Assembly: GCA_028282195.1 (NCBI GenBank)
Contig: JANQII010000040.1
Coordinates: 1 to 55,361 of the forward strand
From: Prolixibacteraceae bacterium
GTDB taxonomy: Bacteria; Bacteroidota; Bacteroidia; Bacteroidales; Prolixibacteraceae
DNA: 55,361 bases
Direction: 5' to 3'
In this document: positions 50 through 15,397 of the stretch, one piece after another
Numbering within the stretch: position 1 is the stretch's first letter
Layout: every line of letters begins with the position of its first letter
Translations under genes and position numbers: made by a program
The notes under the pieces: model-generated
Database searches by the model: none
The model's input: only the letters and a program-made list of their open reading frames with translations
Told to the model about the DNA's origin: nothing

Positions 50-949
50 ATGGAACAAATTGCTCAACGATTGCCCCATTTACCACAACATAAAATAGCA
101 GAACTTGAAACAATTACCCGGCAGATTATTGAAACCGGGATGGCCTGCATGGTTATTTTGTATGGTTCGTATGCAAGGGGGAATTGGAAAGAAGTAGCCG
201 GCAAGAATAAATGGTTTTTTAACCCTGAATTCAGAACAGGCAAGAAAAGTGATTACGACCTGTTGGTACTGGCCAAAGATGAGCGGGACTGCCAGGACTT
301 AAAGAACAGGTTGTACAAAATGTTCGACCATGCCCCTACAGCCGTTCAGGCAACCGTGGAAACCCTGGGTTTTGTGAACATGCACCTGAGGGAAGGGCAA
401 TACTTTTTTACCGAAATAAAAGAACAGGGAATTATTTTATATGCAGATGATCATGTAGAATTAGCCGAAGCCGAAAACCTGACACCAGACCGCCTTAAGG
501 AAATAGCTGAACGGGACTTTAAACAATGGTTTGGGGCAGCTCAAGAAAATCTTGATACCTTCATATTTGTCAAAAACAAATTTACAACCACAAACAATCA
601 CAAATCCGCCCAAAAAGCCTCATTTGAACTACAACAGAGTGTTGAGAACTGCTATACAGCCATTGAAATGGTTTTTAGCCGCAATAACCCGTATGAGCAC
701 CGCTTGGCTGTGCTGCGCATGAATGCCCAACGGTACGCCCCCGAAACAGCTGCCTGTTTCCCTCAAAACACGGAAGAAGAAAAAGACCTCTTTTCACACC
801 TGGATGCCGCGTATATCGGTGGCCGCTACATTGATGAGGAACATTACCGGGTAAGTAAAGAACAACTCGAATACTGGGAAAAAGAAACTAAGAAACTCCT
901 TAAACTGACAGAGAAGGCTTGCCTTGCAAAAATTGAGGAGCTCGCTTAA
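50..949 (+). CDS. Nucleotidyltransferase-HEPN fusion protein
   Basis: A 299-residue cytoplasmic protein with two domains. The N-terminal half is a minimal nucleotidyltransferase (pol-beta fold): the GSYARG motif is at residues 39-44 and the metal-binding D-x-D pair is at D68/D70 in SDYDLLVL. The C-terminal half (about 155-290) is an all-helical HEPN domain with the usual F-x-K-N-K-F and ASFELQQSVENCY helices and a late R-x5-H in the segment around GGRYIDEEH. Separate MNT and HEPN genes form toxin-antitoxin pairs in which the nucleotidyltransferase AMPylates the HEPN RNase; fused single-chain versions are common in Bacteroidota and their role is not settled. The gene stands alone, with a TAnnTTTG-like motif just upstream. 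I infer nucleotide transfer to a protein or small molecule; the substrate is unknown. Confidence 0.85.
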   Translation: MEQIAQRLPHLPQHKIAELETITRQIIETGMACMVILYGSYARGNWKEVAGKNKWFFNPEFRTGKKSDYDLLVLAKDERDCQDLKNRLYKMFDHAPTAVQATVETLGFVNMHLREGQYFFTEIKEQGIILYADDHVELAEAENLTPDRLKEIAERDFKQWFGAAQENLDTFIFVKNKFTTTNNHKSAQKASFELQQSVENCYTAIEMVFSRNNPYEHRLAVLRMNAQRYAPETAACFPQNTEEEKDLFSHLDAAYIGGRYIDEEHYRVSKEQLEYWEKETKKLLKLTEKACLAKIEELA

Positions 950-2609: not shown

Positions 2610-4226
2610 ATGTCTTTGGAAAACAAATCAGAACTAGGCTTACAATTTGAAGAGGTTAAAGTAAACTTCATCTTTAGTTTTTTTATTGATAAAGAAAGTT
2701 CTATAAAATCATTTGTTTCTAGGATGAATTCTGAGAAAATTGGATTATTCAAAAATGTAGAATCAAATGTCATAAAAGAAAATTCTTTTGATACTGATAG
2801 CCTAAAAAAACTGATGTGCAGTTACACACTATCAGATGAATCATACAATAAAAGTAAAAAAACAACAAAAGAATTCAAACAAGAATATGATAATCAACTG
2901 ATCTTCAAAGCAAGAAAAGATGGCAACTCACATTATGATCGTCAGGTTATTTTGCCTAATCTTAGGTTGAAAAAACACGAATATTTCACAAAACTGGATT
3001 TTGGAAATGTAACCATCAAATTACCAATTCTTAGGAAGTATCGAAAAAAGGAAAAAACTGAATATTATAATGATGAATTATATAAAGGAAGGTGTAAATT
3101 GAATGGATTAGTAAGAATCTCAGATTCTGGAATTGGAGCTATGACATTGACTTTTCATTTAAAAAAACAATCTAAAAAACATCTCACTTCTGATGACATA
3201 TTTCAATTTTATAACCTTTTAAACGCATCAGATTCTCAGGACAGCAAAAAATATATTTATCCTAAGATAACTTGTTCGAAAAATCCATTTGATAAAAAAG
3301 AAGAGAAATTTGAGAGTAGAAGGTTAATTAATATTTTAACTCAACTATTTGGAAAATTAAAAGATGAAAAAAGTATAATCACCTTTGGATGTGAAAATAG
3401 TTGTGTTAAGAATTCAGAATGTGAAAATAGTCTCTTATTTCATCATAAAGATTTGGACTGTCAGAATCCTTATGTAGTTGTGAATGGGAAACTCATGAAA
3501 AATGACATTAAATTGAATTACGAGAATGAATTGCAGTTTAATGGGCATCCGCTTTGTTGGTGGGATCATTTTGATGGAAAACATTTTGAAAGGCTTGAGG
3601 ATGATGACCAAAAAAAAGTAAAGAGAAATCTTAGAGAAACAATACTACTACTTTTGCGATACATTATCGGTGGAGAACTTCTTTCTATAAAGAATGATGA
3701 GGAATTCAATAGATTAGTTCCATTGCCTTTTTTCAGAGAAAAGATAAACCATTACACAAAAAACTATAGCTATTTTAAACATATATATATTGCATCTCAT
3801 CATAGAACAACTGTTTTATTTCATGAAAATGTTTCTGAGGAGATAAATGCTGTTAGTTTATCAAAGGTTGAAAATGTTCCAAACTTTGTATCAGACTCAA
3901 TTCTTGATTTATTTGAAGTAATTAGGATGCGTTGGCATTTTAGTGTAGTACTGAATGAATTATTAGATATTGAGATAGATAAATTATCTGACATTCCCGC
4001 AGCTCGAAATAAGGAATTCGCAAAAAATATATTGTCTCTTAGAAAGAAATACGCATATTTCTTAAGTGATCCATTAACCTATTCTTATGGAGGAACTTTA
4101 GTTAATGACCTTTTGGAATCAGCAAAAGATTCTTTTCAAATAGATTATTTGAATAAATTAATAGAAACCAAGTTTACGGTCATTGATGACGTTATAAATG
4201 ATTTAATGAGAACAAGTATTTTGTAA
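2610..4226 (+). CDS. Hypothetical protein, first gene of ABC/radical-SAM cassette
   Basis: A 538-residue protein with no signal peptide or membrane segment. I do not recognise the family. The N-terminal 300 residues look like mixed alpha/beta and contain a cysteine cluster around residues 265-290 (GCENSCVKNSEC then DLDC) that could bind metal. The C-terminal part (about 330-538) is mostly helical, including LRETILLLLRYIIGGELL and EVIRMRWHFSVVLNELLD, and ends in a long helix pair. Codon use is strongly A/T-ended, unlike the flanking genes. Its stop codon overlaps the next gene's ATG by one base (TAATG at 4224-4228), so the two are translationally coupled and probably act together. Function unknown; an accessory or sensing partner of the transporter below is only a guess. 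Confidence 0.8.
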   Translation: MSLENKSELGLQFEEVKVNFIFSFFIDKESSIKSFVSRMNSEKIGLFKNVESNVIKENSFDTDSLKKLMCSYTLSDESYNKSKKTTKEFKQEYDNQLIFKARKDGNSHYDRQVILPNLRLKKHEYFTKLDFGNVTIKLPILRKYRKKEKTEYYNDELYKGRCKLNGLVRISDSGIGAMTLTFHLKKQSKKHLTSDDIFQFYNLLNASDSQDSKKYIYPKITCSKNPFDKKEEKFESRRLINILTQLFGKLKDEKSIITFGCENSCVKNSECENSLLFHHKDLDCQNPYVVVNGKLMKNDIKLNYENELQFNGHPLCWWDHFDGKHFERLEDDDQKKVKRNLRETILLLLRYIIGGELLSIKNDEEFNRLVPLPFFREKINHYTKNYSYFKHIYIASHHRTTVLFHENVSEEINAVSLSKVENVPNFVSDSILDLFEVIRMRWHFSVVLNELLDIEIDKLSDIPAARNKEFAKNILSLRKKYAYFLSDPLTYSYGGTLVNDLLESAKDSFQIDYLNKLIETKFTVIDDVINDLMRTSIL

Positions 4227-5203
4227 TGATTGATTTGGATAAGAAATATGAAAAATTCATCAAGAAGAGGCGTAAAGAAATTATGGCATCATATGTTTGG
4301 AGCGATTCTCAAAAAGAATTAATTATAAGAACCATTGAAGAACATGCATTAAAATATTTAAAATTAAAAGAGGCTTATCAAATAATAATTGACAGAAAAG
4401 ATAAAGATTATAATGGTTTTGGGCTCAATGGGAAATTAGTTCACCTTGAAGGTATCTACAAATATGATAGTCTGGAGATAGCACATGAATTTGAATTCTT
4501 TCAAGAATTAATGTATCCAAATGGGATTGAAATTGAAAAAATACCAAATTTAGCTTGTCATGAACATTTTGAAGCGAAGGGTATTAAAAGAACTTGGGAA
4601 GAAGAGCTTAACATTTTCGCAAATAAGAAACATGATTGCCGTAATATATGGTTAAAAAATCACCTATTAATAACAGAAAATATGATTGACCTTAGAACAA
4701 ATGCAGCTATCGTTCTTGATATGCTTGAAGAAATTAAAAGTGAAGTAATCTTTAGAGATAAAGTAAAAACTGTTTTTGGTTCAACTTATCAATCGAAGTT
4801 AGACGAATTTTTCACTCTTAAATCATCTTTGACTGACAATATTATTTCGTATGATAGCAATAAAGCAATGTATGATCGAAAGAGATCTTCAAACTCGAAA
4901 AAATCAAACTTTATTGATTCTCAAGAAGATCTGGTTAGAACGCTTGAAGATATTGATACTTTTTTCCTAATTAAATTATACCCATTACTAAAGGATGAAT
5001 TATCTAAGCTTGACTCAAAGGTGTCCGGTGGCGAATTGGAATTACTTGAAGGAAACGATATAAATTCTTTTCAAGAAAAAGTTAAAAGTTCTATTAATCT
5101 AATTGACAAAATTTCAGAAAAAGGAAAGAAAATTTGGGATTTTGTCGATAGTAATAAAGAAACACTTTTTAATATTGGCAAAACGCTAGCAATGATATTT
5201 TAA
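4226..5203 (+). CDS. Hypothetical protein, second gene of ABC/radical-SAM cassette
   Basis: A 325-residue, lysine- and glutamate-rich soluble protein of unknown family. It is helical for most of its length, with an aromatic block FGLNGKLVHLEGIYKYDS near residues 71-88 and a coiled-coil-like C-terminal half. The last 20 residues (about 305-325) form an amphipathic to hydrophobic helix, ETLFNIGKTLAMIF, which might dock on a membrane or on the 538-residue partner. It starts on the last base of the preceding gene and ends 17 bp before the substrate-binding lipoprotein gene, so it belongs to the same transcript. The name 'hypothetical' is all that sequence supports. Confidence 0.8.
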   Translation: MIDLDKKYEKFIKKRRKEIMASYVWSDSQKELIIRTIEEHALKYLKLKEAYQIIIDRKDKDYNGFGLNGKLVHLEGIYKYDSLEIAHEFEFFQELMYPNGIEIEKIPNLACHEHFEAKGIKRTWEEELNIFANKKHDCRNIWLKNHLLITENMIDLRTNAAIVLDMLEEIKSEVIFRDKVKTVFGSTYQSKLDEFFTLKSSLTDNIISYDSNKAMYDRKRSSNSKKSNFIDSQEDLVRTLEDIDTFFLIKLYPLLKDELSKLDSKVSGGELELLEGNDINSFQEKVKSSINLIDKISEKGKKIWDFVDSNKETLFNIGKTLAMIF

Positions 5204-5220
5204 TTAAACAATATATTATT

Positions 5221-6234
5221 ATGAAGAAATATACATTTTATTTAATTGCTTTACTATTTACAATCCTAACAGCATGCACGAATACTAGTAAAAAAGATTT
5301 AGAAGAGGTAAAAGTAATGTATAACATTGATGCCAATAATTTACATTTCCCAATAGCAGAAAAACAAGGCTATTTTGAAGAATTTGGAATTAATGTAAAA
5401 AGCAGTAATTCGGCAGCAGCAAAATTTGCTCTTGATGCTTTAAATGCAGGAAGTGTTGATTATTCAGTATTGGTAGATATGAATATTGCCCATAATCTAT
5501 TCAACAAAAATAGTGATGAATCTTTGAAAAATGATTTAGTTGTTTTAGCTGAACTTGCAGAACCAATAAATGCGATCAAACTAATTGCTCGAAAAGATAG
5601 AGGCATTGAAAAAGCAGAAGATTTAAAAGGTAAAAAAATAGGTGTTTTGTTTGGGGTTAACATTCATCTTTTCCTACATAAATACCTACTAGATAATGGC
5701 ATTGCTTTAGATGAAGTTGAAATGATTAATATGGCTCCACCAAACGCTGTTTCAGCTTTTAAGTCAAATGGTGGTGATTCTGATACACAAATAGACGCCA
5801 TTGTAATTTGGCAGCCACATGTTTATAAACTTCAAAAAGAACTTGGAGATAAAGTTATTGTATTATCTGATGAGGGGCATAAGTATTGGTATTATAAAAT
5901 GATCTTAGTGACAAAAAAGGAAATACTTGAAAATAACCCAGAAACCGCTAAAGCGATTCTTAAAGGATTAAGAAAGGCTGATGAATTAATCCAGAAAGAT
6001 GAAAATCTTGCTATTGAAACAATGGCGAATCTATTATACATGGATGTAAAAGAAGTGAAAGAATTCTATTCAGAACACCAATATAAGTTACAATTAACTG
6101 ATGGATTATATGATATGATTGTAGAGGACGTTAATTGGCTCGACACGACAATTCATAAGGGCTCTAGTCCTATTGAATACAAGCGAAGTACAATTATCTC
6201 AAACCTGTATAATGAAACATTTAAAAAGCAATAA
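5221..6234 (+). CDS. NitT/TauT-type ABC transporter substrate-binding lipoprotein
   Basis: A 337-residue lipoprotein: residues 1-18 are a type II signal peptide with lipobox LTAC, Cys19 being the lipidated residue. The mature protein has the NMT1/THI5-like periplasmic binding fold (PIAEKQGYFEEFGINVK at the start of domain 1; GKKIGVLFGVNIHLFL in the middle; DAIVIWQPHV in the hinge region). Family members deliver nitrate, taurine or sulfonates, riboflavin, or thiamine pyrimidine precursors; the binding-pocket residues do not let me choose. It is followed by its permease (overlapping) and ATPase, giving a complete importer. Presence of a full importer beside a radical SAM enzyme suggests uptake of a substrate or precursor for that enzyme. 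Confidence 0.9.
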   Translation: MKKYTFYLIALLFTILTACTNTSKKDLEEVKVMYNIDANNLHFPIAEKQGYFEEFGINVKSSNSAAAKFALDALNAGSVDYSVLVDMNIAHNLFNKNSDESLKNDLVVLAELAEPINAIKLIARKDRGIEKAEDLKGKKIGVLFGVNIHLFLHKYLLDNGIALDEVEMINMAPPNAVSAFKSNGGDSDTQIDAIVIWQPHVYKLQKELGDKVIVLSDEGHKYWYYKMILVTKKEILENNPETAKAILKGLRKADELIQKDENLAIETMANLLYMDVKEVKEFYSEHQYKLQLTDGLYDMIVEDVNWLDTTIHKGSSPIEYKRSTIISNLYNETFKKQ

Positions 6235-7015
6235 AAAAATTTCATCATTAATAAAGAGTATTATAGAAGGCAGCTATATTCAGCTTCTTTCTATAATTGC
6301 TCTCATTATTGTTTGGTATTATGCATCATCAACAGTAAAGGGTAATTATTCTGTAATCCCAGCTATTAACGAGATATATCTGGCAGGTAAGGATGCTATT
6401 AATAGGGGTTTCTTTATTGATGATTTAGTGATGAGTTGTAAAAGAGTCTACCCGGGCTTGTTTTATGGTTCTATCATAGGGGTTTTTATCGGTATAATTA
6501 CAGGAAGAAGTCGGTTTCTTTATAAATCATTTGGTACATACTTCCATATTTGGAGAGCATTACCCGCTGTTGCACTTGTTCCAGTAATAATCCAATTTTT
6601 TGGAGTAAGTGAGTTTGCAAAAATCTTCATGATTGCACTGGGTGTATTCTTTCCTGTATGGATTTCAACCCATGAGGGAGCCTCTCAATTACCAGAAACA
6701 TATAAAGAACTTAGTGAGAATCTAAAGCTCTCAAAATTTCGTTTCAATATTAAAATAGTGATACCATTTTCTCTTTCTTATTCCATTGGAGGATTAAGAA
6801 CAGGTATTGCCCTTTCCTTTATTATGCTGTTTGTTGCCGAGTGGATTGGTGCAAGTGAAGGAATTGGATATCGAATTTCCTACTCCCATATTATTGATAA
6901 AATGGATTTAATGTTTTTAGGGCTAATTGAGTTAGGTTTATTAGCATTTCTGACTGATGCTCTTTTCAAAATCTTTGTAAGCAAAGTTTTTCCCTGGATA
7001 AAATACTCTAAATGA
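6212..7015 (+). CDS. ABC transporter permease, NitT/TauT family
   Basis: About 267 residues with six membrane segments and a BPD_transp_1 domain. The cytoplasmic coupling (EAA) loop is visible as EGASQLPETYKELSENLKLS, matching the family pattern in which this loop contacts the ATPase. The late GLLAFLTDALFK segment is also typical. I prefer the ATG at 6212 over the in-frame ATG at 6173 because the latter would overlap the binding-protein gene by 62 bp and add a polar extension not seen in the family; from 6212 the overlap is 23 bp. Its stop overlaps the ATPase start by four bases (ATGA at 7012-7015), indicating coupled translation. Confidence 0.9.
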   Translation: MKHLKSNKKISSLIKSIIEGSYIQLLSIIALIIVWYYASSTVKGNYSVIPAINEIYLAGKDAINRGFFIDDLVMSCKRVYPGLFYGSIIGVFIGIITGRSRFLYKSFGTYFHIWRALPAVALVPVIIQFFGVSEFAKIFMIALGVFFPVWISTHEGASQLPETYKELSENLKLSKFRFNIKIVIPFSLSYSIGGLRTGIALSFIMLFVAEWIGASEGIGYRISYSHIIDKMDLMFLGLIELGLLAFLTDALFKIFVSKVFPWIKYSK

Positions 7016-7755
7016 CAAAAGAAAAGAAAATAACGGTTAAAGTTGAGAACCTTAATGTTAATTATGGAGAGAATACTATTCTTAATGACTTATCATTTTC
7101 AATAAAGGAGAATGAATTCTTTGTTTTAGTTGGAAAATCGGGGTCAGGAAAAACTACTTTATTAAAGTCAATATCAGGATTACTCGATTATAATGGAAGG
7201 ATAGTAACAAATGGTGAGTTGAGGCTTGTATTTCAGGATGATCGATTATTACCATGGTTGAAAGTTAGCCAAAATATCAAACTTGGTATTCCTGTCTACA
7301 ATAACAATCATATTGATAGAGATCATAAGCTATCAGAAGAAACTAAAGAGAAAATAGTTCAAGTTTCAGAACACCTAGAAATAGAAGATTTATTGCGAAA
7401 ATATCCTGATCAAATTTCAGGGGGTGAAAAACAAAGAGTTTCAATTGCTAGAGCATTTATTTCCGAACCTCAAATCGTCTTGATGGATGAGCCTTTCAAA
7501 TCATTAGATATTTTCACTAAAGAAAATATATATGATTGGCTTTTGAATTTCTGGAGAAAACTAGGATCTTCCATTATTTATGTAACACATGATTTAGAAG
7601 AGGCTTTATTTTTAGGAGACAGGGTTGCATTGCTTCAAGATGGTCAGATTATAAAAAGCATTGAAGTCCCTTTTGATCGTCCCAGGAATAAAAACATAAA
7701 GTATTCAGACAAGTTTACTGAGTATAGAAAAATGCTAGCAGCTTCCTTTAAGTAG
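7012..7755 (+). CDS. ABC transporter ATP-binding protein, NitT/TauT family
   Basis: A 247-residue nucleotide-binding subunit. Walker A GKSGSGKT is at residues 41-48, the Q-loop with the TauB/SsuB-like VFQDDRLLPWLKV follows at about 74-86, the signature ISGGEKQRV is near 137-145, Walker B IVLMDEP near 158-164, and the switch histidine in YVTHDLEEAL near 191-200. All catalytic elements are intact, so the importer should be energised. The LLPW after the Q-loop places it with nitrate/sulfonate/taurine/pyrimidine importers. It overlaps the permease by four bases and is followed after 3 bp by the radical SAM gene. Confidence 0.95.
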   Translation: MTKEKKITVKVENLNVNYGENTILNDLSFSIKENEFFVLVGKSGSGKTTLLKSISGLLDYNGRIVTNGELRLVFQDDRLLPWLKVSQNIKLGIPVYNNNHIDRDHKLSEETKEKIVQVSEHLEIEDLLRKYPDQISGGEKQRVSIARAFISEPQIVLMDEPFKSLDIFTKENIYDWLLNFWRKLGSSIIYVTHDLEEALFLGDRVALLQDGQIIKSIEVPFDRPRNKNIKYSDKFTEYRKMLAASFK

Positions 7756-7758
7756 CGT

Positions 7759-9138
7759 ATGAATATTTTATTAATAAATCCGTTTTCGCAATACGATTCT
7801 GTAAACTATTCGTTTGAGCCTAATTTGGGTCTTTTAGCTATCTACAGTCTACTTCCCGAAAGTTTTAAAAAAGAGGCTACAATATTAGATGGCGCTATTT
7901 TACCATCTAACGAAATAAAAAACGAAATAAATCTCAATAAACCCAAGATTGTAGCCATATCATGTAATTCTTTTAATTACAGCATTGCCCTTGAATATTG
8001 TAACGAAGCAAAAAAACACGGTGCGACAACGATACTTGGTGGTGTTCATATTACTAATTCTTATAAATCGATAATTAGGAATAAATCAGTACGCGTAAAT
8101 CAAATAGATTATTTGCATATTGGAGCACTTCAAAATGATTTTTCTTTCTTTATACATGAAGTTTTAAAAGGAACTTTTTCAAACTCTTATTCAAACATTC
8201 TATATCTTCCTGATTCAAACAAAGATTCTGAGATCATACCAATTCCAAACAACTACTTTCTTGATTCATTAGACTATTCAAATACCAATTTTAATGATTA
8301 TTCAAAATTCTTTACTCGTCGAGGAAATCTTGAAAGGTCAAAAATCATAGGTTCCACATTCACTCAAATTGGCTGTCCTCAGAATATTGTAAATAGAAGA
8401 TGTTCTTTTTGCTCTGTTCCTCAAAAGCATTTTTACCGGGATCTGGATAAAATACTAATAGATATTAAACATTTGACGCAAAACCATAATGTTGACCATA
8501 TCAGAATAACTGATCCAGACTTTTTAACAAATAAGGAGCGACTTTCTGATTTAATAAAAAGTTTAGAAACTTCTTTTAAATCCTATGATACAAAACCTTC
8601 TTTTTACTGTTTTACAAGGGCTGATAATATTGACCAAAATATCAAGATTATAAAATCCTTGAATATTGTATCTACATTCATTGGATATGAATCTGGAAGC
8701 AATAAAATGTTGAAAAGATTCAACAAAAACATCACAGCAGCAAAAAGCATTGAGGCGACAAGACTCTTACAGGAAAACAATGTTGATGTAACTTTAGGTA
8801 GCTTTATTATAGGAGGAATAAAAGAGTCAAAGGATACATTGAAAGAAACGTTATCATTCCTTCAGAAATTATCTAAAATTGGGAATGTTAGAAGTATATT
8901 AATTTCTCCAATGATACCTTATCCTGGTTCAAACGTATTTGATCGATTATTGTCTAAACTTGAAGAAGTTAACAGACAAGAATATGAAAAAATATATTAT
9001 TCCGATGATTATGACTTAAACGAACTCATAGTTCTTTGGAATAGATATTTTACCAACGTTGGCATTGAAGATTTAAGAAAGACAATTGAAGATGCATATG
9101 AAATAATCCCTCTTGGCATGAGATATTTGAAGATTTAA
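7759..9138 (+). CDS. B12-binding-domain radical SAM protein
   Basis: A 459-residue cytoplasmic enzyme. Residues 1-150 form a cobalamin-binding-like Rossmann domain (NILLINPF at the start, ATTILGGVHIT around 92-102) but without a D-x-H-x-x-G cobalt ligand motif. The radical SAM core covers about 195-430. The iron-sulfur cysteines are C206, C215 and C218, a C-x8-C-x2-C spacing instead of the usual C-x3-C-x2-C; the substitute residues are PQNIVNRR. Later motifs (FIGYESGSNKMLKRFNK, GSFIIGGIKES) fit the SPASM-less, B12-type branch such as methyltransferases. It starts 3 bp after the ATPase gene, ends the cassette, and shares its low-GC codon use. The reaction is unknown; radical methylation, rearrangement or ring contraction are all possible. 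Confidence 0.85.
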   Translation: MNILLINPFSQYDSVNYSFEPNLGLLAIYSLLPESFKKEATILDGAILPSNEIKNEINLNKPKIVAISCNSFNYSIALEYCNEAKKHGATTILGGVHITNSYKSIIRNKSVRVNQIDYLHIGALQNDFSFFIHEVLKGTFSNSYSNILYLPDSNKDSEIIPIPNNYFLDSLDYSNTNFNDYSKFFTRRGNLERSKIIGSTFTQIGCPQNIVNRRCSFCSVPQKHFYRDLDKILIDIKHLTQNHNVDHIRITDPDFLTNKERLSDLIKSLETSFKSYDTKPSFYCFTRADNIDQNIKIIKSLNIVSTFIGYESGSNKMLKRFNKNITAAKSIEATRLLQENNVDVTLGSFIIGGIKESKDTLKETLSFLQKLSKIGNVRSILISPMIPYPGSNVFDRLLSKLEEVNRQEYEKIYYSDDYDLNELIVLWNRYFTNVGIEDLRKTIEDAYEIIPLGMRYLKI

Positions 9139-9225: not shown

Positions 9226-9402
9226 ATGAAGAATCTTTATCTGTTAATGGCATTGCTCCTAATTGTTTCTGGCTTGGTCCCCAAAAATGCCAGCGGACAA
9301 ACTACTCCCGCTCGCGCCGATTTACAATCGGTGTACAACTCAAAAGAGTTGAAATTATTTTTTTCAGCCTTTGGTAGAGGCACAAATTGCAAAGTCAAGT
9401 AG
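9226..9402 (+). pseudogene. 5' remnant of a secreted-protein gene, interrupted by repeat and intron
   Basis: Reading from ATG 9226, after an AGGAG site, gives 58 residues: a clean Sec signal peptide (MKNLYLLMALLLIVSGLV, cleavage about NASG-Q) and then a stretch with no protein-like character that lies in a palindromic dispersed repeat (CCGAT-TTACA-ATCGG and CAACTC-AAAA-GAGTTG hairpins). The stop TAG at 9400 falls inside the group II intron. If the intron is removed the frame continues only about 10 more codons. I read this as the 5' end of a secreted protein gene that lost its body when the repeat inserted, followed by the intron. Too short and damaged to assign a function. Confidence 0.6.
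9308..9398. repeat. Palindromic dispersed repeat (part 1), split by the group II intron
   Basis: Two perfect small hairpins (CCGAT-n5-ATCGG near 9318-9332, CAACTC-n4-GAGTTG near 9337-9352) are followed by GGCACAAATTGCAAAGTCAA. The other side of the presumed insertion site is CTTGCGCCAGCGTGGGG at 11263-11279. Joined, they give an inverted repeat in which CAATTTGTGCC pairs with GGCGCAAGTTG at 9 of 11 positions on the intron strand. Confidence 0.55.
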
Positions 9403-9428
9403 GTACAGGGAATCTCACCCCATACCTC

Positions 9429-9467
9429 TCACAGAACCGTACGTGATTGTCTCCAATCATACGGCTC
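9429..9467 (-). ncRNA. Group II intron domain V
   Basis: Reading the minus strand, GAGCCGTATGATTGG and AATCACGTACGGTTC pair as the two arms of the catalytic domain V hairpin with a GAGA tetraloop in place of GAAA. The GAGCCGTATG / CGTACGGTTC helix is the near-invariant hallmark of group II introns. Confidence 0.85.
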
Positions 9468-9480
9468 TTATCATACAAAC

Positions 9481-10737
9481 TTATACCAAATGGTAACCGA
9501 TTTGCCAGTGATAGAACAAGTAGCGATAATGCCTGTACACATACTTTAAATGTGCAATAGCAAGCCTTTTACTGTTCCTGAACCTTTTGAACCGGTTTCT
9601 TATCCATTTTATCAGTCGGTTATGCAGTCGGTGAAACACTTTAGTAAGGGTACGGGAACTGAATTTGTCATAATATCCAATCCACCCCCTGATTTTACTG
9701 TTCAACAGGTCAGCAATCTCTTGCCACGATGTTAGCCAGCGGTCAAAACGGGTATGCCGTATTTCCCCAACCAGTTTGGGATATGACTTTTGACTGATTT
9801 CACAATCATACCCCAAGAACATCCCCCCACGTTTCGATGGTTTGCTTACCGGACGGAAACTGAATCCAAGAAAGTCGAATTTTGATTTCTTCCCTTTCAG
9901 CTTTCTACGGTAATCTTTGCAATACACAATCCGCGTCTTCTGGGGATGTGCTGACAATCCACACCTTACCATCCGGCTTTTAATTTCCCTCAAAATGTAG
10001 CAGGCTTGATCCTCGGATACACAATGGACGATTATATCATCAGCATATCTTACAAATGAAACCTGTGGAAACTTTAATTCCATCCATTTATCAAACGTAT
10101 AATGCAAATACAGGTTAGCCAGCAAGGGACTTATTACACCTCCTTGCGGGGTGCCTTTGCCTTTCTTTGCTTCCATGCTACCATCCAACTTGGCAACCGG
10201 GGCTTCCAGCCATCTCTGTACATACATTTGAACCCATTGTTCAGGCACATGCCTGTCAAGCGCTTTCATCAGTTTTTCGTGTTCTACGTTATCGAAGAAT
10301 GCTGTAATATCCAAATCAATTACCCAGGCATACTTCCTAACATTTTCCCTAACGCAGGTCAATGCCTGATGTGCACCCCTCAATGGCCTGTAACCATACG
10401 ACGGTTCATGGAACCCTTTTTCGAGCCGGGGCCCTAACAGGTCTTTTATCACCTGCTGGGCAACCCTGTCTGAGACTGTTGGGATACCGGGCTTTCTTAC
10501 CTGCCCGTTATCCTTCTTTATCCCATGTTCCCTAACTGCTGGTGGGAAGTAACCCCCTGAGGCAAACCGGTTCCATAGTTTGTACAGGTTAGCTGACAGG
10601 TTTTCTTCGTATTGACGAATACTTATCTTGTCAATCCCTGCACCCCCTTTGTTCGATTTTACTTTCTTGTAAGCCTTCCACACCATTTCCTTACTGATGG
10701 GTAAGGGTTTTGTTTTCTCTTCAAAAATCTTCCTCAT
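9481..10737 (-). CDS. ltrA: Group II intron reverse transcriptase/maturase
   Basis: A 418-residue intron-encoded protein. The RT domain (about 20-290) has the family blocks: GIDKISIRQYEENL near the start, GYRPLRGAHQA, IDLDITAFFDNV (RT3), GTPQGGVISPLLANLYL (RT4) and the catalytic FVRYADD (RT5). The maturase (X) domain follows with LNSKIRGWIGYYDKF. There is no C-terminal HNH endonuclease domain, so integration would rely on the maturase and replication forks. It splices and mobilises the surrounding intron. The ATG at 10737 follows an A-rich stretch; the frame is uninterrupted, so the enzyme should be functional. Confidence 0.95.
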   Translation of the reverse strand: MRKIFEEKTKPLPISKEMVWKAYKKVKSNKGGAGIDKISIRQYEENLSANLYKLWNRFASGGYFPPAVREHGIKKDNGQVRKPGIPTVSDRVAQQVIKDLLGPRLEKGFHEPSYGYRPLRGAHQALTCVRENVRKYAWVIDLDITAFFDNVEHEKLMKALDRHVPEQWVQMYVQRWLEAPVAKLDGSMEAKKGKGTPQGGVISPLLANLYLHYTFDKWMELKFPQVSFVRYADDIIVHCVSEDQACYILREIKSRMVRCGLSAHPQKTRIVYCKDYRRKLKGKKSKFDFLGFSFRPVSKPSKRGGMFLGYDCEISQKSYPKLVGEIRHTRFDRWLTSWQEIADLLNSKIRGWIGYYDKFSSRTLTKVFHRLHNRLIKWIRNRFKRFRNSKRLAIAHLKYVYRHYRYLFYHWQIGYHLV

Positions 10738-11262
10738 TAATTTTGGGTTGTTAATAATTTGAAAACTGTATAATTGAACCCCTTTGCCCCACCCCCATTA
10801 CAGGGGCTTCAACACTACTACGGGTTCATCCGTCACCTCTTGCTGCATTAGTAACCGCCTTGATTTTACTCTTGTATTTTCCTTTTCGCATCAATAAGGG
10901 GCTTCCCGTGTCCCGCAAATAAGCCCGGATAAAAGTCATGCCCCCTTAACAACGCCTGACATGCAACCAGTAAACAGGTTTCCGTTGCACTTGTCCCTGG
11001 GACCGCAAAATGTCCCGGTTTTGTCAGGATGTACCGCTTTCTCGGTGCTTCATCGGTAGGTTCGCTTTCGCTCATCTCTTTTATCCATACATGACCAATT
11101 CAAATTTGGCCTTTTTTTTTCCTCGCTTCACACATGCCAATTGCTCAACATGCATCAGGAAAATTGTTTGGAGCCGCTCCCTGTAGAGAGACTCCGGAGG
11201 GTCGGTTCCTCCATCTTATTTGCAGCTATGTAAAAGAACGCTTACTTTTACTCACGGCACAC

Positions 11263-11646: not shown

Positions 11647-13953
11647 GTGACAAAACAACTACTACTAACTTTTATTACCGGTCTGTTTCTTGTGTTTTTA
11701 TCCAATGCGCAGAAAAGTACTTTGTTTCTGGATGATTTGGCTTTCCCTTGTATCGAATCAAATGAATCACAGAACATTGCCGAAACTCAGGCGTATTTGA
11801 TAGAACTTGACAATTCAAAAGACCTAAGCAAAGTTGTTTCTTCATTACCAGTTGCTATACAGCAGCAAGCAGTTGCGTTATTTGCTTTCTCAGGAGAATA
11901 CGACAAGGAACTTTTAAAAGCTGAGCTTACCGAAAAATACGGGAACCAACTTTATACCTGCAATAACAAATCCGATTGGCCAAGCCTGGACTCGCTTCAA
12001 CAGAAAAAAAAATCAGTCATTGCTGTTTTTAATAATGACCTGACATTTACTTCTGTAGAACAAATAAGGGATAACAATATATACGACAAGCGTTTTTCAA
12101 AAGACCCACTGGATAAGTTGGTTGTTTTTAACTCAAACTCTACCGACAACCTTTATAACGAATGTCTTTCAATGTGGAAAGCAACAGGCAAAGTGCCCAA
12201 CCTGATTATTTTGCCTTCAGAAAGAAATTCAACTTACAAATCAGCCCTGGATTCCATAAACTCCCTAAGGCGTTTTAAAGGTATTTTCAAGTACAACAAT
12301 GAATATCTCAATGAAATTTACTGGCATCAAAAACCAAAATTAATTACGCCTGCCAGGTTTTCGCTTCCCTTAACCGACTACAAAGAAATCTTATCGCCAT
12401 ATAAAAATGGTTACATAATTACTCCTCGTGAGATTATTCACCATACCGGGATGCCTGACCTTTTACGTGAGTTTAATGCTTTTGAAAGCTCAATTGATGA
12501 TCAGCTGATTATGAACTTTTCATTCGAAAAGAAAATTGTCAACCTGAGTGACCCGGACTGGAATAAGATAATCAATAAGAATGTTGAAATAAGAAAAGAT
12601 GATGAAAGAGGAAAAGTACTACACTTTTTCAAGCCCAACTCATTTATTGACTATTCAAAAGAAAATGATTTAAATTTTGACACCCCATTCACGATCGCAA
12701 CCTGGCTAAAACCAGATAGTTTAACTGACTTTATGGGGATTGTGGGCGTAGGAACATCTTTCTCTCTAAAATTAAATCATGGCATTCCGGATTTTACAAC
12801 CGCTACAATTAAAGATCATAGAACAGACAGGCCTCTGGAATTAAATAAGTGGCATCACCTTACGGTTGTATTTAATCCAGCCCGAACAGTAGAGTTTTAC
12901 ATTAATGGACAAAAAAACCCCATTGTTAATGCATCCGAGATTAAACCGTCCAATCAATCATTAATTATTGGCAACAACATTTGGGGCGAACAATTTTATG
13001 GTTCTATTGATGATCTGAAAATATGGGACAGAGGGCTTTCTGAAAAAGAAATTAAATCAGTTTACCTGATTAAGGCTACCTCTTCTGCAAGTAAATTTTC
13101 AGTGTATTACATTATCATATCCACGCTCATAGTCTTGTTTTTTGCAGTTGCGTTTTACACCATCAATAAAAGGCGAAATAAGCGGAAACCTAAAACAAAA
13201 AAAGCAGCTACGCTAAAAACTGACACCCCATCTATTCAAATTAAGCTTTTTGGGGCATTTCAGGTTTTCTCAGTTGCCGAAGGGGATATTTCAACTCGGT
13301 TTTCCCCACTTCTAAGGCAAATGCTGGCTTTCTTCATTTTAAACAAGGCCGAAAACCCGGAAGGAATTAATTCAAAACAAATAAGTGATACTTTCTGGCC
13401 TGGATCACCAAAGGAAAAAGCAAAAGAAAACCGGGGTGCTAACATCAAAAAGCTGCGAAAACTTCTCAACGAATTAGGTGGTGTCTCAATTATTTATAAA
13501 AACAAAAAATGGATTCTGGAACTGGATAACCGACTTGAAATTGATTTTCTTTTATACAATGAGTTGAAAACAAAAGTGGGTATTCAGGTTCATATCGACT
13601 CTGATATCATAGAAAAGCTAATAGCCATTTTGAAAGATGGTAATATTCTCCAAAACCTGGAACAGGAGTGGCTTGACTCCTACAAAAGCAATATTTCGGA
13701 TGAAGTCATAGAACTCCTTAAAAGCATCCTTCCAGGGCTTGATAAGAATTCAAATCTTCAAATTGAAACTGCAAAAACCATTCAGCAATTTGATCCATTA
13801 AACGAAGAAGCTTTAAAATACATTTTGATTGCTTTGGCATTGCAAGGGAATCATGGGCAAGCACAACAAGTTTACGACGATTTCTGCAAAAAATATATGC
13901 ATTTGTATAATGAAGAATACCCGCATTCCTATACTGAAATTGTAAAAAAGTAA
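11647..13953 (+). CDS. Membrane-spanning one-component regulator: LamG sensor, TM, SARP-like winged helix
   Basis: A 768-residue protein starting at GTG (AAGG seven bases upstream). Residues 1-21 are a Sec signal peptide. Residues about 25-300 are an unrecognised periplasmic region; about 315-475 are a LamG/concanavalin-type jelly roll (FTIATWLKPDS, LELNKWHHLTVVF, IDDLKIWDRGLSEKEI). A single membrane helix is at 485-508, followed by a basic stop-transfer. The cytoplasmic part has a SARP/OmpR-like winged helix (about 530-625: IKLFGAFQVF, GINSKQISDTFWPG, NIKKLRKLLNELGG) and a helical BTAD-like tail. The same output architecture occurs at 19887-22415 with a Kelch sensor. I infer direct coupling of extracellular glycan binding to transcription, probably of the GH109/GH20 genes just downstream. 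Confidence 0.8.
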   Translation: MTKQLLLTFITGLFLVFLSNAQKSTLFLDDLAFPCIESNESQNIAETQAYLIELDNSKDLSKVVSSLPVAIQQQAVALFAFSGEYDKELLKAELTEKYGNQLYTCNNKSDWPSLDSLQQKKKSVIAVFNNDLTFTSVEQIRDNNIYDKRFSKDPLDKLVVFNSNSTDNLYNECLSMWKATGKVPNLIILPSERNSTYKSALDSINSLRRFKGIFKYNNEYLNEIYWHQKPKLITPARFSLPLTDYKEILSPYKNGYIITPREIIHHTGMPDLLREFNAFESSIDDQLIMNFSFEKKIVNLSDPDWNKIINKNVEIRKDDERGKVLHFFKPNSFIDYSKENDLNFDTPFTIATWLKPDSLTDFMGIVGVGTSFSLKLNHGIPDFTTATIKDHRTDRPLELNKWHHLTVVFNPARTVEFYINGQKNPIVNASEIKPSNQSLIIGNNIWGEQFYGSIDDLKIWDRGLSEKEIKSVYLIKATSSASKFSVYYIIISTLIVLFFAVAFYTINKRRNKRKPKTKKAATLKTDTPSIQIKLFGAFQVFSVAEGDISTRFSPLLRQMLAFFILNKAENPEGINSKQISDTFWPGSPKEKAKENRGANIKKLRKLLNELGGVSIIYKNKKWILELDNRLEIDFLLYNELKTKVGIQVHIDSDIIEKLIAILKDGNILQNLEQEWLDSYKSNISDEVIELLKSILPGLDKNSNLQIETAKTIQQFDPLNEEALKYILIALALQGNHGQAQQVYDDFCKKYMHLYNEEYPHSYTEIVKK

Positions 13954-14053
13954 GTTTTTTCGTTTTATTCCCCCTTTTGTTCCTCTTGGCATTACCCTGG
14001 ATTCCTGTATATTGCAATTAATTTCGCGTAAAACAAAATAAAACTGTCAAATC

Positions 14054-15397
14054 ATGAATACAAACAGAAGGAATTTCCTGAAAACATTTAGTGCTGCCGG
14101 AGCAGGTTTGGTTGTTGCACCCCATATTGCAAAAGCGGGAAGCTTATCAAAAAAGAAAGAAGGAGAAGTTAATATTGCGTTCATTGGTGTTGGCGGCCGT
14201 GGCCGTAGCCATGTAAGAAGATCAATATTAACTGAAGGGGTGAAAATCACTGCTATCTGCGATATTGATCCGGAGGCAATAAGCAAAACACAAAAGATGC
14301 TCCGTGACGCTGGCATGCCAGAGGCTGCTGTATATTCCAATGGGGAATATGCTTATCTTGAAATGCTAAAGCGTGATGAGATTGATGGTGTAATTATTTC
14401 CACTCCCTGGTTGTGGCATACTAAAATGGCTGTAGCAACCATGAAGGCCGGCAAATATGCTGGTCTTGAAGTATCAGCAGCAAATACCATTGAGGAATGT
14501 TGGGACCTGGTAAATACTTCGGAGGAAACCGGTATACCATGCATGATCCTCGAAAATGTAAATTATCGCCGGGATGTAATGGCTGTGATGAATATGGTAA
14601 AGCAAGGCCTTTTCGGGGAAGTTGTTCATGCCCGTTGTGGTTACCGCCATAGTTTATTGGGTGTAAAGTTTAATGAAGATTTGAAATTTGGTGATGGGGC
14701 TAAAGGGGAAGCACGCTGGAGAACCCAACATTCATTAAAAAGAAATGCTGATGTCTACCCTACTCACGGTCTTGGACCAATTGCTGCTATGCTGGACATT
14801 AACCGGGGTAACCGTTTCCTTTACCTTACATCAACCGCATCAAAAGCTGTTGGTTTAAAAGATTATATTGAAGAGCATCCACAGGGAGGAAAAGATCATC
14901 CACATGCTAAACTTCCGTGGAAACTGGGGGATATTATTACCTCAATCATTAAAACGACAAATGGAGAAACCATTATTGTTACGCATGATTGTAACTTGCC
15001 TCGCCCCTATTCATTAAATTTCCATGTTGCAGGTACAGATGGTGTAACTGATTTTGACTATGGACACCGCCGTATCCATATTGAAGGGCAGACAGAAGGC
15101 CACGGCTGGGATGAGTTCAAAGCATGGCAAGATAAATACGATCATCCACTTTGGAAACAATATGGAGAAAAAGCGTCAGGTTCCGGACATGGTGGAATGG
15201 ACTTCTTCGTAACAAGGGAATTTATAAATGCAGTAAAAGAACAGCGCCAACCGGTTATGGATGTTTATGATGCAGCCGCATGGAGCGCTGTCACGCCACT
15301 TTCAGAGGCATCAATTGCCCAGGGCAGTGCACCTCAGTACTTCCCGGATTTTACCAGGGGCAATTGGGTAAAAAGAAAACCTGTAGAGTTTGTATAA
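14054..15397 (+). CDS. GH109 family alpha-N-acetylgalactosaminidase (Gfo/Idh/MocA fold)
   Basis: A 447-residue exported enzyme with a Tat signal (RRNFLKTFSAAGAG; twin Arg at 5-6). The N-terminal Rossmann domain shows AFIGVGGRGRSH, the NAD-binding loop of GH109, and DID at the end of strand 2. The C-terminal alpha/beta domain carries the GH109 block YPTHGLGPIA (Y235-H238), HAKLPWKLGDI and GHGGMDFF. Characterised members hydrolyse terminal alpha-GalNAc, for instance blood group A, by an NAD-dependent redox mechanism with the cofactor retained. Length matches the family (about 440-470). It lies 100 bp after the LamG regulator gene and before a GH20 gene, consistent with a shared role in removing terminal amino sugars. 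Other Gfo/Idh/MocA activities remain possible. Confidence 0.85.
   Translation: MNTNRRNFLKTFSAAGAGLVVAPHIAKAGSLSKKKEGEVNIAFIGVGGRGRSHVRRSILTEGVKITAICDIDPEAISKTQKMLRDAGMPEAAVYSNGEYAYLEMLKRDEIDGVIISTPWLWHTKMAVATMKAGKYAGLEVSAANTIEECWDLVNTSEETGIPCMILENVNYRRDVMAVMNMVKQGLFGEVVHARCGYRHSLLGVKFNEDLKFGDGAKGEARWRTQHSLKRNADVYPTHGLGPIAAMLDINRGNRFLYLTSTASKAVGLKDYIEEHPQGGKDHPHAKLPWKLGDIITSIIKTTNGETIIVTHDCNLPRPYSLNFHVAGTDGVTDFDYGHRRIHIEGQTEGHGWDEFKAWQDKYDHPLWKQYGEKASGSGHGGMDFFVTREFINAVKEQRQPVMDVYDAAAWSAVTPLSEASIAQGSAPQYFPDFTRGNWVKRKPVEFV

Follow-up and report, generated by a model that had tools for sequence, protein, structure and literature searches.

In a contig of 55,361 nucleotides from a Prolixibacteraceae bacterium (assembly GCA_028282195.1, contig JANQII010000040.1; this whole stretch is called the window below), six genes at 2610-9138 encode two proteins without a known family (unk1 and unk2), an ATP-binding cassette (ABC) importer of the NitT/TauT type and a B12-binding radical S-adenosylmethionine (SAM) protein. 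We found that unk1, unk2 and the importer are a recurring unit, present also at a second place in the same genome (L007) and in three other genomes (L045, L052 and L164). The module is horizontally mobile, and the first part of unk2 was exchanged between the close copies L007 and L052, in L052 for a Thoeris-like TIR domain. We tentatively read it as a mobile, immune-like sensor/effector system built round the importer, an immune function that we infer from the genes and their arrangement. Its composition is new, as no described system compared here shares it; the newness concerns composition, not function.

The window is contig C31 of genome G000, whose assembly has 5.84 Mb in 348 contigs (98.4% complete, 2.95% contamination). 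The parts of the operon are:

2610..4226, + strand: unk1, 538 aa; constant cytosolic-type protein without a known family, with relatives in L007, L052, L164 and L045
3867..4223, + strand: C-terminal part of unk1, residues 420-538; the sole stretch of the window copy with detectable similarity to its relatives
4226..5203, + strand: unk2, 325 aa; fills the variable slot, without a family and, in the window copy, without a TIR domain
5221..6234, + strand: NitT/TauT-type substrate-binding protein with a lipoprotein-like start (Cys19)
6212..7015, + strand: importer permease
7012..7755, + strand: importer ATPase
7759..9138, + strand: B12-binding radical SAM protein, 459 aa; a part that some loci lack
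8374..8412, + strand: cysteine motif CX8CX2C of that protein, residues 206-218; its spacing and place in the alignment match L164

Operon, related loci and the constant protein unk1

The first-pass annotation of this sequence had proposed one operon of six genes on the same strand. Six open frames were indeed present on the + strand, and their spacings of -1, +17, -23, -4 and +3 bp (computed with the ATG at 6212 as permease start) supported a single operon. Codon use had been described as more A/T-rich than in the flanks, and this was also borne out: the GC content at third codon positions (GC3) of the six genes was 0.216-0.257, in all six cases under the minimum of 29 other window coding sequences, which were hand-picked from lists of open reading frames. 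For 27 of these the lowest value was 0.262, with a mean of 0.347 and a standard deviation of 0.057; the two further ones had 0.394 and 0.297. The gene assignments agreed with the annotation as well. Both unk1 and unk2 stayed under every family cut-off in Pfam, NCBIfam and PADLOC (best Pfam E 0.02 and 0.041). The adjacent NMT1/SsuA-like binding protein (PF09084, 1e-19), BPD permease (PF00528, 3e-22) and ATPase (PF00005, 7.2e-29) make up a NitT/TauT ABC importer. Gene 6 combines a radical SAM core (PF04055, 1.2e-17) with an N-terminal B12-binding domain (1.3e-7), which scored 31.9 bits against a Pfam cut-off of 32.1 and is above the cut-off in the L164 counterpart.

The core of unk1, unk2, binding protein, permease and ATPase was found in identical order in four loci. 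L052, from Bacteroidales bacterium SMBSF30 (another family of the same order), has this five-gene order; L163 is the same contig and was not counted separately. L164, in genome G835 (same order, another family), is the only further locus with the full six-gene order of the window. In L045, from a genome of another class (G139), the order is unk1, unk2, a small membrane gene, binding protein, ATPase, permease and methyltransferase. The check for co-occurrence that the annotation had called for therefore came out positive for the core, with permease and ATPase swapped and one small gene added in the fifth locus. The six-gene set fared less well as a unit: its full order was seen once more, and the radical SAM gene, present in two of the five loci, is not a fixed part. 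The query that led to L007 was unk1, and L045, L052 and L164 were reached with binding-protein queries, so the link between unk1 and the importer was seen both ways. In all five loci the importer follows unk2, in L045 after the small membrane gene.

These arrangements make it very improbable that two unrelated AT-rich gene groups simply came to lie side by side. Such a chance neighbourhood would fit the lack of similarity among unk2 proteins beyond the L007-L052 pair, and the fact that window unk1 matches its relatives by its C-terminal part only. However, the same arrangement occurs in five loci, whether the starting point was unk1 (as for L007) or the binding protein (as for L045, L052 and L164), and in the four loci of identical order the unk2 and binding-protein genes are 4 to 22 bp apart or overlap.

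The constant part of the module is unk1. The L007 and L052 copies share 57% identity, and the L164 protein matches that of L052 over its full length (29% identity, E 1e-53). Residues 421-537 of window unk1 match L164 unk1 (28%, E 2.5e-7), and against a profile of L052, L007 and L164, with the window excluded, window unk1 gave E 9.6e-5 and a probability of 58; its residues 1-420 gave no clear signal against the relatives. The L045 protein was linked through window unk1 (28% over 112 aa, E 3e-5; hhalign 0.001, probability 22) and, in profile comparison, not through L007, L052 or L164. In a shuffle test, window unk1 reached z 8.3 against L164, 7.0 against L007, 5.6 against L052 and 5.2 against L045. 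Because one of 25 cross-slot control pairs (window unk1 with L007 unk2) reached z 4.9, and 5.7 in another run, a z near 5 is no proof of homology. A fold prediction for unk1 from a 2-row alignment had a mean predicted local distance difference test (pLDDT) score of 32.6, too poor for a fold search. A weak PDB sequence match of a 4-row unk1 profile (Csy4, 0.19) was set aside, and a match of L045 unk1 to PADLOC PDC-M11B (0.0088) was discounted as evidence of defence.

The survey covered several overlapping samples of genomes. Profile searches with unk1 (E <= 0.01) found only the known copies among 140 genomes from the family of G000 and 237 from its class, and the known copies plus one match in G107 among 228 of the phylum; the G107 match (E 0.0048) was a MutS2-like protein by eye and was dropped as due to chance. 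Among 92 genomes of the family of G139 (E <= 0.1), G139 and three marginal matches were found. Candidates in G344 and G334 were dropped as marginal, as was one in G069 (E 4.7e-4, and 0.010 in another search), a frame with three stops. With the binding protein, a contig scan matched 343 stretches, including 120 relatives, and 80 were kept; a search through 295 genomes from the order yielded 34 places spread over 32 genomes, with 12 wide regions retrieved. No further unk1 appeared when 206 records, including the 80 contig-scan loci and 59 short binding-protein loci, were scanned with the profile, in which the five training rows match by construction. As the unk1 searches found few copies, the module is rare.

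Horizontal mobility and exchange within unk2

The second copy in G000 shows that the module is horizontally mobile; transfer had already been suspected in the annotation. Among 296 genomes of the phylum, an unk1 search hit the window, the marginal G069 frame and one further place in G000 (E 1.9e-4). The reverse search with unk1 of that place, in 247 genomes, recovered the window (E 9.6e-5). This copy, L007 on contig C217, consists of unk1 (465 aa), unk2 (410 aa), binding protein, permease and ATPase, and no radical SAM gene follows the five. Its genes are AT-rich (GC3 0.190-0.258, against 0.344 for the nearby rpoC). The flanks are an EamA-like transporter gene and an amidotransferase-like gene (PF00117, 2e-29, for the G000 copy). 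In four of six congeners these two genes are direct neighbours without the module, and in the remaining two the amidotransferase and the module are both missing at that site. None of the six has the module. Past the amidotransferase comes an asparagine-synthase-like gene in the congeners; in G000 a small gene and then rpoC follow (names by eye). No convincing terminal repeats were found at the second copy. For the window copy no empty site was found, and the gene downstream of it has its best congener match in G695, among different neighbours.

The variable slot is unk2. Across the loci these proteins lack similarity except in the L007-L052 pair, which agrees at the C-terminal end (71% over 181 alignment columns). 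In a DNA comparison, the two loci match at 66% over a stretch that starts about 70 bp ahead of unk1 and takes in the first 21-26 bp of unk2. They match again, at 78%, from inside unk2 (after about 231 codons in L007 and about 321 in L052) to 6-9 bp beyond the ATPase stop. Between these stretches lie 667 bp (L007) and 943 bp (L052) of unk2 without a counterpart, in loci whose remaining genes have 57-87% identity. The L052-specific stretch carries a TIR domain (PF13676, TIR_2, 2.4e-15). It scores as ThsB1 of Thoeris in PADLOC (1.4e-36) and aligns with the NAD+ hydrolase AbTIR, with one glutamate, a catalytic residue, kept. In the first part of L007 unk2, and in unk2 of the window, L164 and L045, Pfam recognised no known domain. 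The first part of unk2 was thus exchanged between close copies. Compared with the annotation, the case for a module has grown stronger, through the second copy, the insertion site and the domain swap, and that for a fixed six-gene pathway has weakened.

Searches with unk1 and unk2 gave zero matches in plasmids and viral contigs. The L052 unk2 matched 45 plasmid records, and the 20 matches listed all fall in its TIR region. No support was found for an effector-associated domain at the N-terminal end of this protein, and we do not claim one. Prediction from unk2 alone (pLDDT 49.1) was too poor for a fold search, and weak PDB sequence matches of a 4-row unk2 profile (Ste5, 0.0025; CheA, 0.14) were set aside.

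The annotation had also placed a group II intron and repeats beside the operon, and both are there. The intron lies directly behind it, at window 9394-11212 on the minus strand:

11090-11212, minus strand: RF01999 (group II intron)
9394-9469, minus strand: RF00029 (group II intron)
9481-10737: reverse transcriptase frame of the intron

A short frame opening near 9226 heads for the 3' end of the intron (read by eye). Between the upstream gene and unk1, an imperfect 21-bp tandem repeat array occupies 2023-2198. At window 50-949 there is a Polbeta-type nucleotidyltransferase (PF18765, 5.7e-7) with a long C-terminal part. Directly after the L164 module, at 11668-14070, we observed an SMC-like ATPase with a weak match to LmuB, a defence protein (5.5e-8), and then a membrane coiled-coil-like gene.

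Importer and SAM-dependent enzymes

The binding protein matched TIGR01728 (1.1e-35), and its nearest solved relatives are taurine- and sulfonate-binding proteins (taurine-binding 6ssy, 7.7e-26, with a 5-row profile). These similarities are what a metabolic uptake operon would predict. That explanation, the main rival of the immune-like reading, is to us rather doubtful. A scarce nutrient such as a sulfonate, a nitrogen compound or a vitamin precursor would be imported, the SAM enzyme would act on it, and unk1 and unk2 would regulate or assist. The best metabolic parallel is the isethionate pathway, where, in the part of PMC11423573 available to us, a radical SAM protein lies near a sulfonate importer (isethionate reductase IsrBHDK with SsuCAB). 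In the same part of that source, IsrB works with a nitrogenase-like enzyme, whereas the module has no genes for such an enzyme. Binding protein, permease and ATPase are of the same family as SsuABC, TauABC and NrtABCD, but the module's importer is preceded by two unknown proteins and comes without any sulfonate, nitrate or vitamin enzyme. The importer proteins also stayed under the NCBIfam cut-offs, including every equivalog (for the ATPase, among the best 25 of 210 models). The TIR domain and wholesale replacement in the unk2 slot, and the sporadic distribution with none of the six congeners carrying the module, also speak against a metabolic role.

In a quick tree of 148 binding-protein rows, the window, L007, L052 and L164 fell in one clade, with a Shimodaira-Hasegawa-like approximate likelihood-ratio test (SH-aLRT) value of 97, which lends further support to the relationship of these loci. 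This clade also takes in a protein each from L061 and L205, and the L045 protein is placed elsewhere. A label test showed no clustering of module rows beyond that of shuffles (2 changes; 182 of 500 shuffles as low; 8 labelled rows). The tree carries a long-branch warning, with the window, L045 and L205 among the branches concerned. L061 (1-6348), from an alphaproteobacterial metagenome-assembled genome, has five binding-protein-like genes in tandem, followed by single ATPase and permease genes (by eye), and it was one of these five that entered the tree and fell in the module clade. Several near relatives of the binding protein (L010, L011 and L053-L060) adjoin histidine-kinase-like genes, without a permease (by eye). 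Because of these neighbours, this branch may include sensors.

Two suggestions from the database matches were dropped. Matches of the window ATPase to PADLOC mad3 and mad8 (1.1e-28 and 1.3e-15) were discounted, as ATPases in general score there. An organometal system, 'SAO' (the NCBIfam Sao models prompted this), was rejected: those models were far under their cut-offs and the literature search named no such system.

SAM-dependent enzymes vary among the five loci: two have the radical SAM gene (window, L164), one has a small-domain class I methyltransferase at the operon end (L045) and two have neither (L007, L052). The window and L164 radical SAM proteins share 23% identity across 456 aa (E 5e-6), and their CX8CX2C motifs align with each other. 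The usual radical SAM cysteine spacing is CX3CX2C. A literature search on the CX8CX2C spacing gave nothing useful. Because unrelated members of the superfamily may look alike, and the best NCBIfam models differ (BchE for the window enzyme, a methyltransferase of ribosomally synthesized and post-translationally modified peptides (RiPPs) for L164), orthology of the two is not established. Like BchE, PhpK, HpnJ, the RiPP C-methyltransferases and OxsB, the module enzyme has B12-binding and radical SAM domains; unlike them it has the CX8CX2C spacing, and it is far under all the listed cut-offs. Its best solved relative is OxsB of oxetanocin synthesis (1.6e-9, only part of the core). From the family and from the class I methyltransferase of L045, we regard it as a putative methyltransferase. 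Matches to PDC-M51A (2.3e-6 for the window, 1.5e-10 for L164) were discounted as evidence of defence.

The presence of B12 radical SAM enzymes in the window and L164, the methyltransferase that ends the L045 operon and the OxsB relationship would suit uptake with tailoring, in which the cell takes in a secondary metabolite, antibiotic or signal and methylates it, either to detoxify it or to make a product. We consider this quite unlikely. The module contains no further biosynthetic gene, the enzyme is missing in L007 and L052 though their other genes are intact, and the TIR domain is left unexplained.

NitT/TauT importer operons without unk1, each with a methyltransferase, were observed at L202 (1964-8754), L204 (3416-18328) and L205 (5358-18147). 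All three adjoin or lie close to type I restriction genes, in L205 on the other strand and one gene away. At L172 (2673-10651), the importer is accompanied by a SPASM radical SAM gene and by three large proteins without a clear family. This habit suggests, as a lead only, that the SAM enzyme may methylate something related to the transported molecule.

An immune-like role and the known systems

The immune-like reading is preferred because immune effectors show this pattern of a constant frame with one exchanged arm that can carry a TIR domain. The core of the module is unk1 as the constant part, unk2 as its exchangeable partner and a single-permease NitT/TauT-type importer, often with a SAM-dependent enzyme appended at the operon end (in the window, the B12 radical SAM enzyme). 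The importer would supply or report a small molecule, and unk1 may couple this signal to unk2, the putative effector arm, which in L052 has a TIR domain that would cleave or cyclise NAD. By altering the molecule, the radical SAM enzyme or methyltransferase might either create the signal or abolish it. In its most specific form, this would be an immune system with its own importer, which takes up or monitors a molecule that the enzyme methylates, unk1 senses and unk2 (for example as a TIR NADase) responds to; that version strikes us as doubtful. The TIR domain in the L052 slot, the domain swap and the mobility favour a role in immunity or signalling at least as much as in metabolism. The uptake and modification of an unusual small molecule, which the annotation had suggested, may still be what the module does.

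Among known systems, Thoeris (ThsA/ThsB) resembles the module in the ThsB1-like TIR of L052 and differs from it in that the module has a full importer. PADLOC gave no ThsA match for unk1 or unk2 of any of the five loci, and neither Pfam nor PADLOC found a ThsB-type TIR protein in the window. The NTP-dependent biological conflict systems share with the module a constant component joined to a swappable effector component, according to the passages of Kaur et al. 2020 (PMC7159879) available to us. Radical SAM and periplasmic-binding domains are named there among the effectors, and these passages describe no complete importer. No NTPase, caspase or vWA component was found in the module, and Pfam gave no caspase or cyclase family for unk1 or unk2 in the five loci, EACC1 of the two-gene membrane conflict system of Kaur et al. 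not having been searched for. Passages of PMC8195603 yielded nothing relevant, and titles and abstract openings in one open-access library named no importer coupled to a TIR, defence or conflict system.

Several observations weigh against an immune-like, mobile system. TIR was found in one of the five loci and not in the window copy, no PADLOC model matched unk1 or unk2 (the L052 TIR apart), the immediate neighbours of the window copy include no recognised classic defence gene, and the second copy lies near rpoC/rpoB. The importer is from an ordinary family, with taurine and sulfonate binders as nearest solved relatives. Taken alone, the unk1 links of the window to L052 and L045 are weak. As for mobility, the insertion site of the second copy was also rearranged, because what lies past the amidotransferase is not the same in G000 as in the congeners.

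If the immune-like reading is true, bacteria can build uptake into immunity, or into a population-level warning, by means of a mobile importer and a swappable partner that bears a TIR domain in one case. Should the role prove metabolic, two uncharacterised proteins, unk1 and unk2, would still be linked to an importer, and the methyl-transfer-type enzyme offers a starting point from which to find the substrate.

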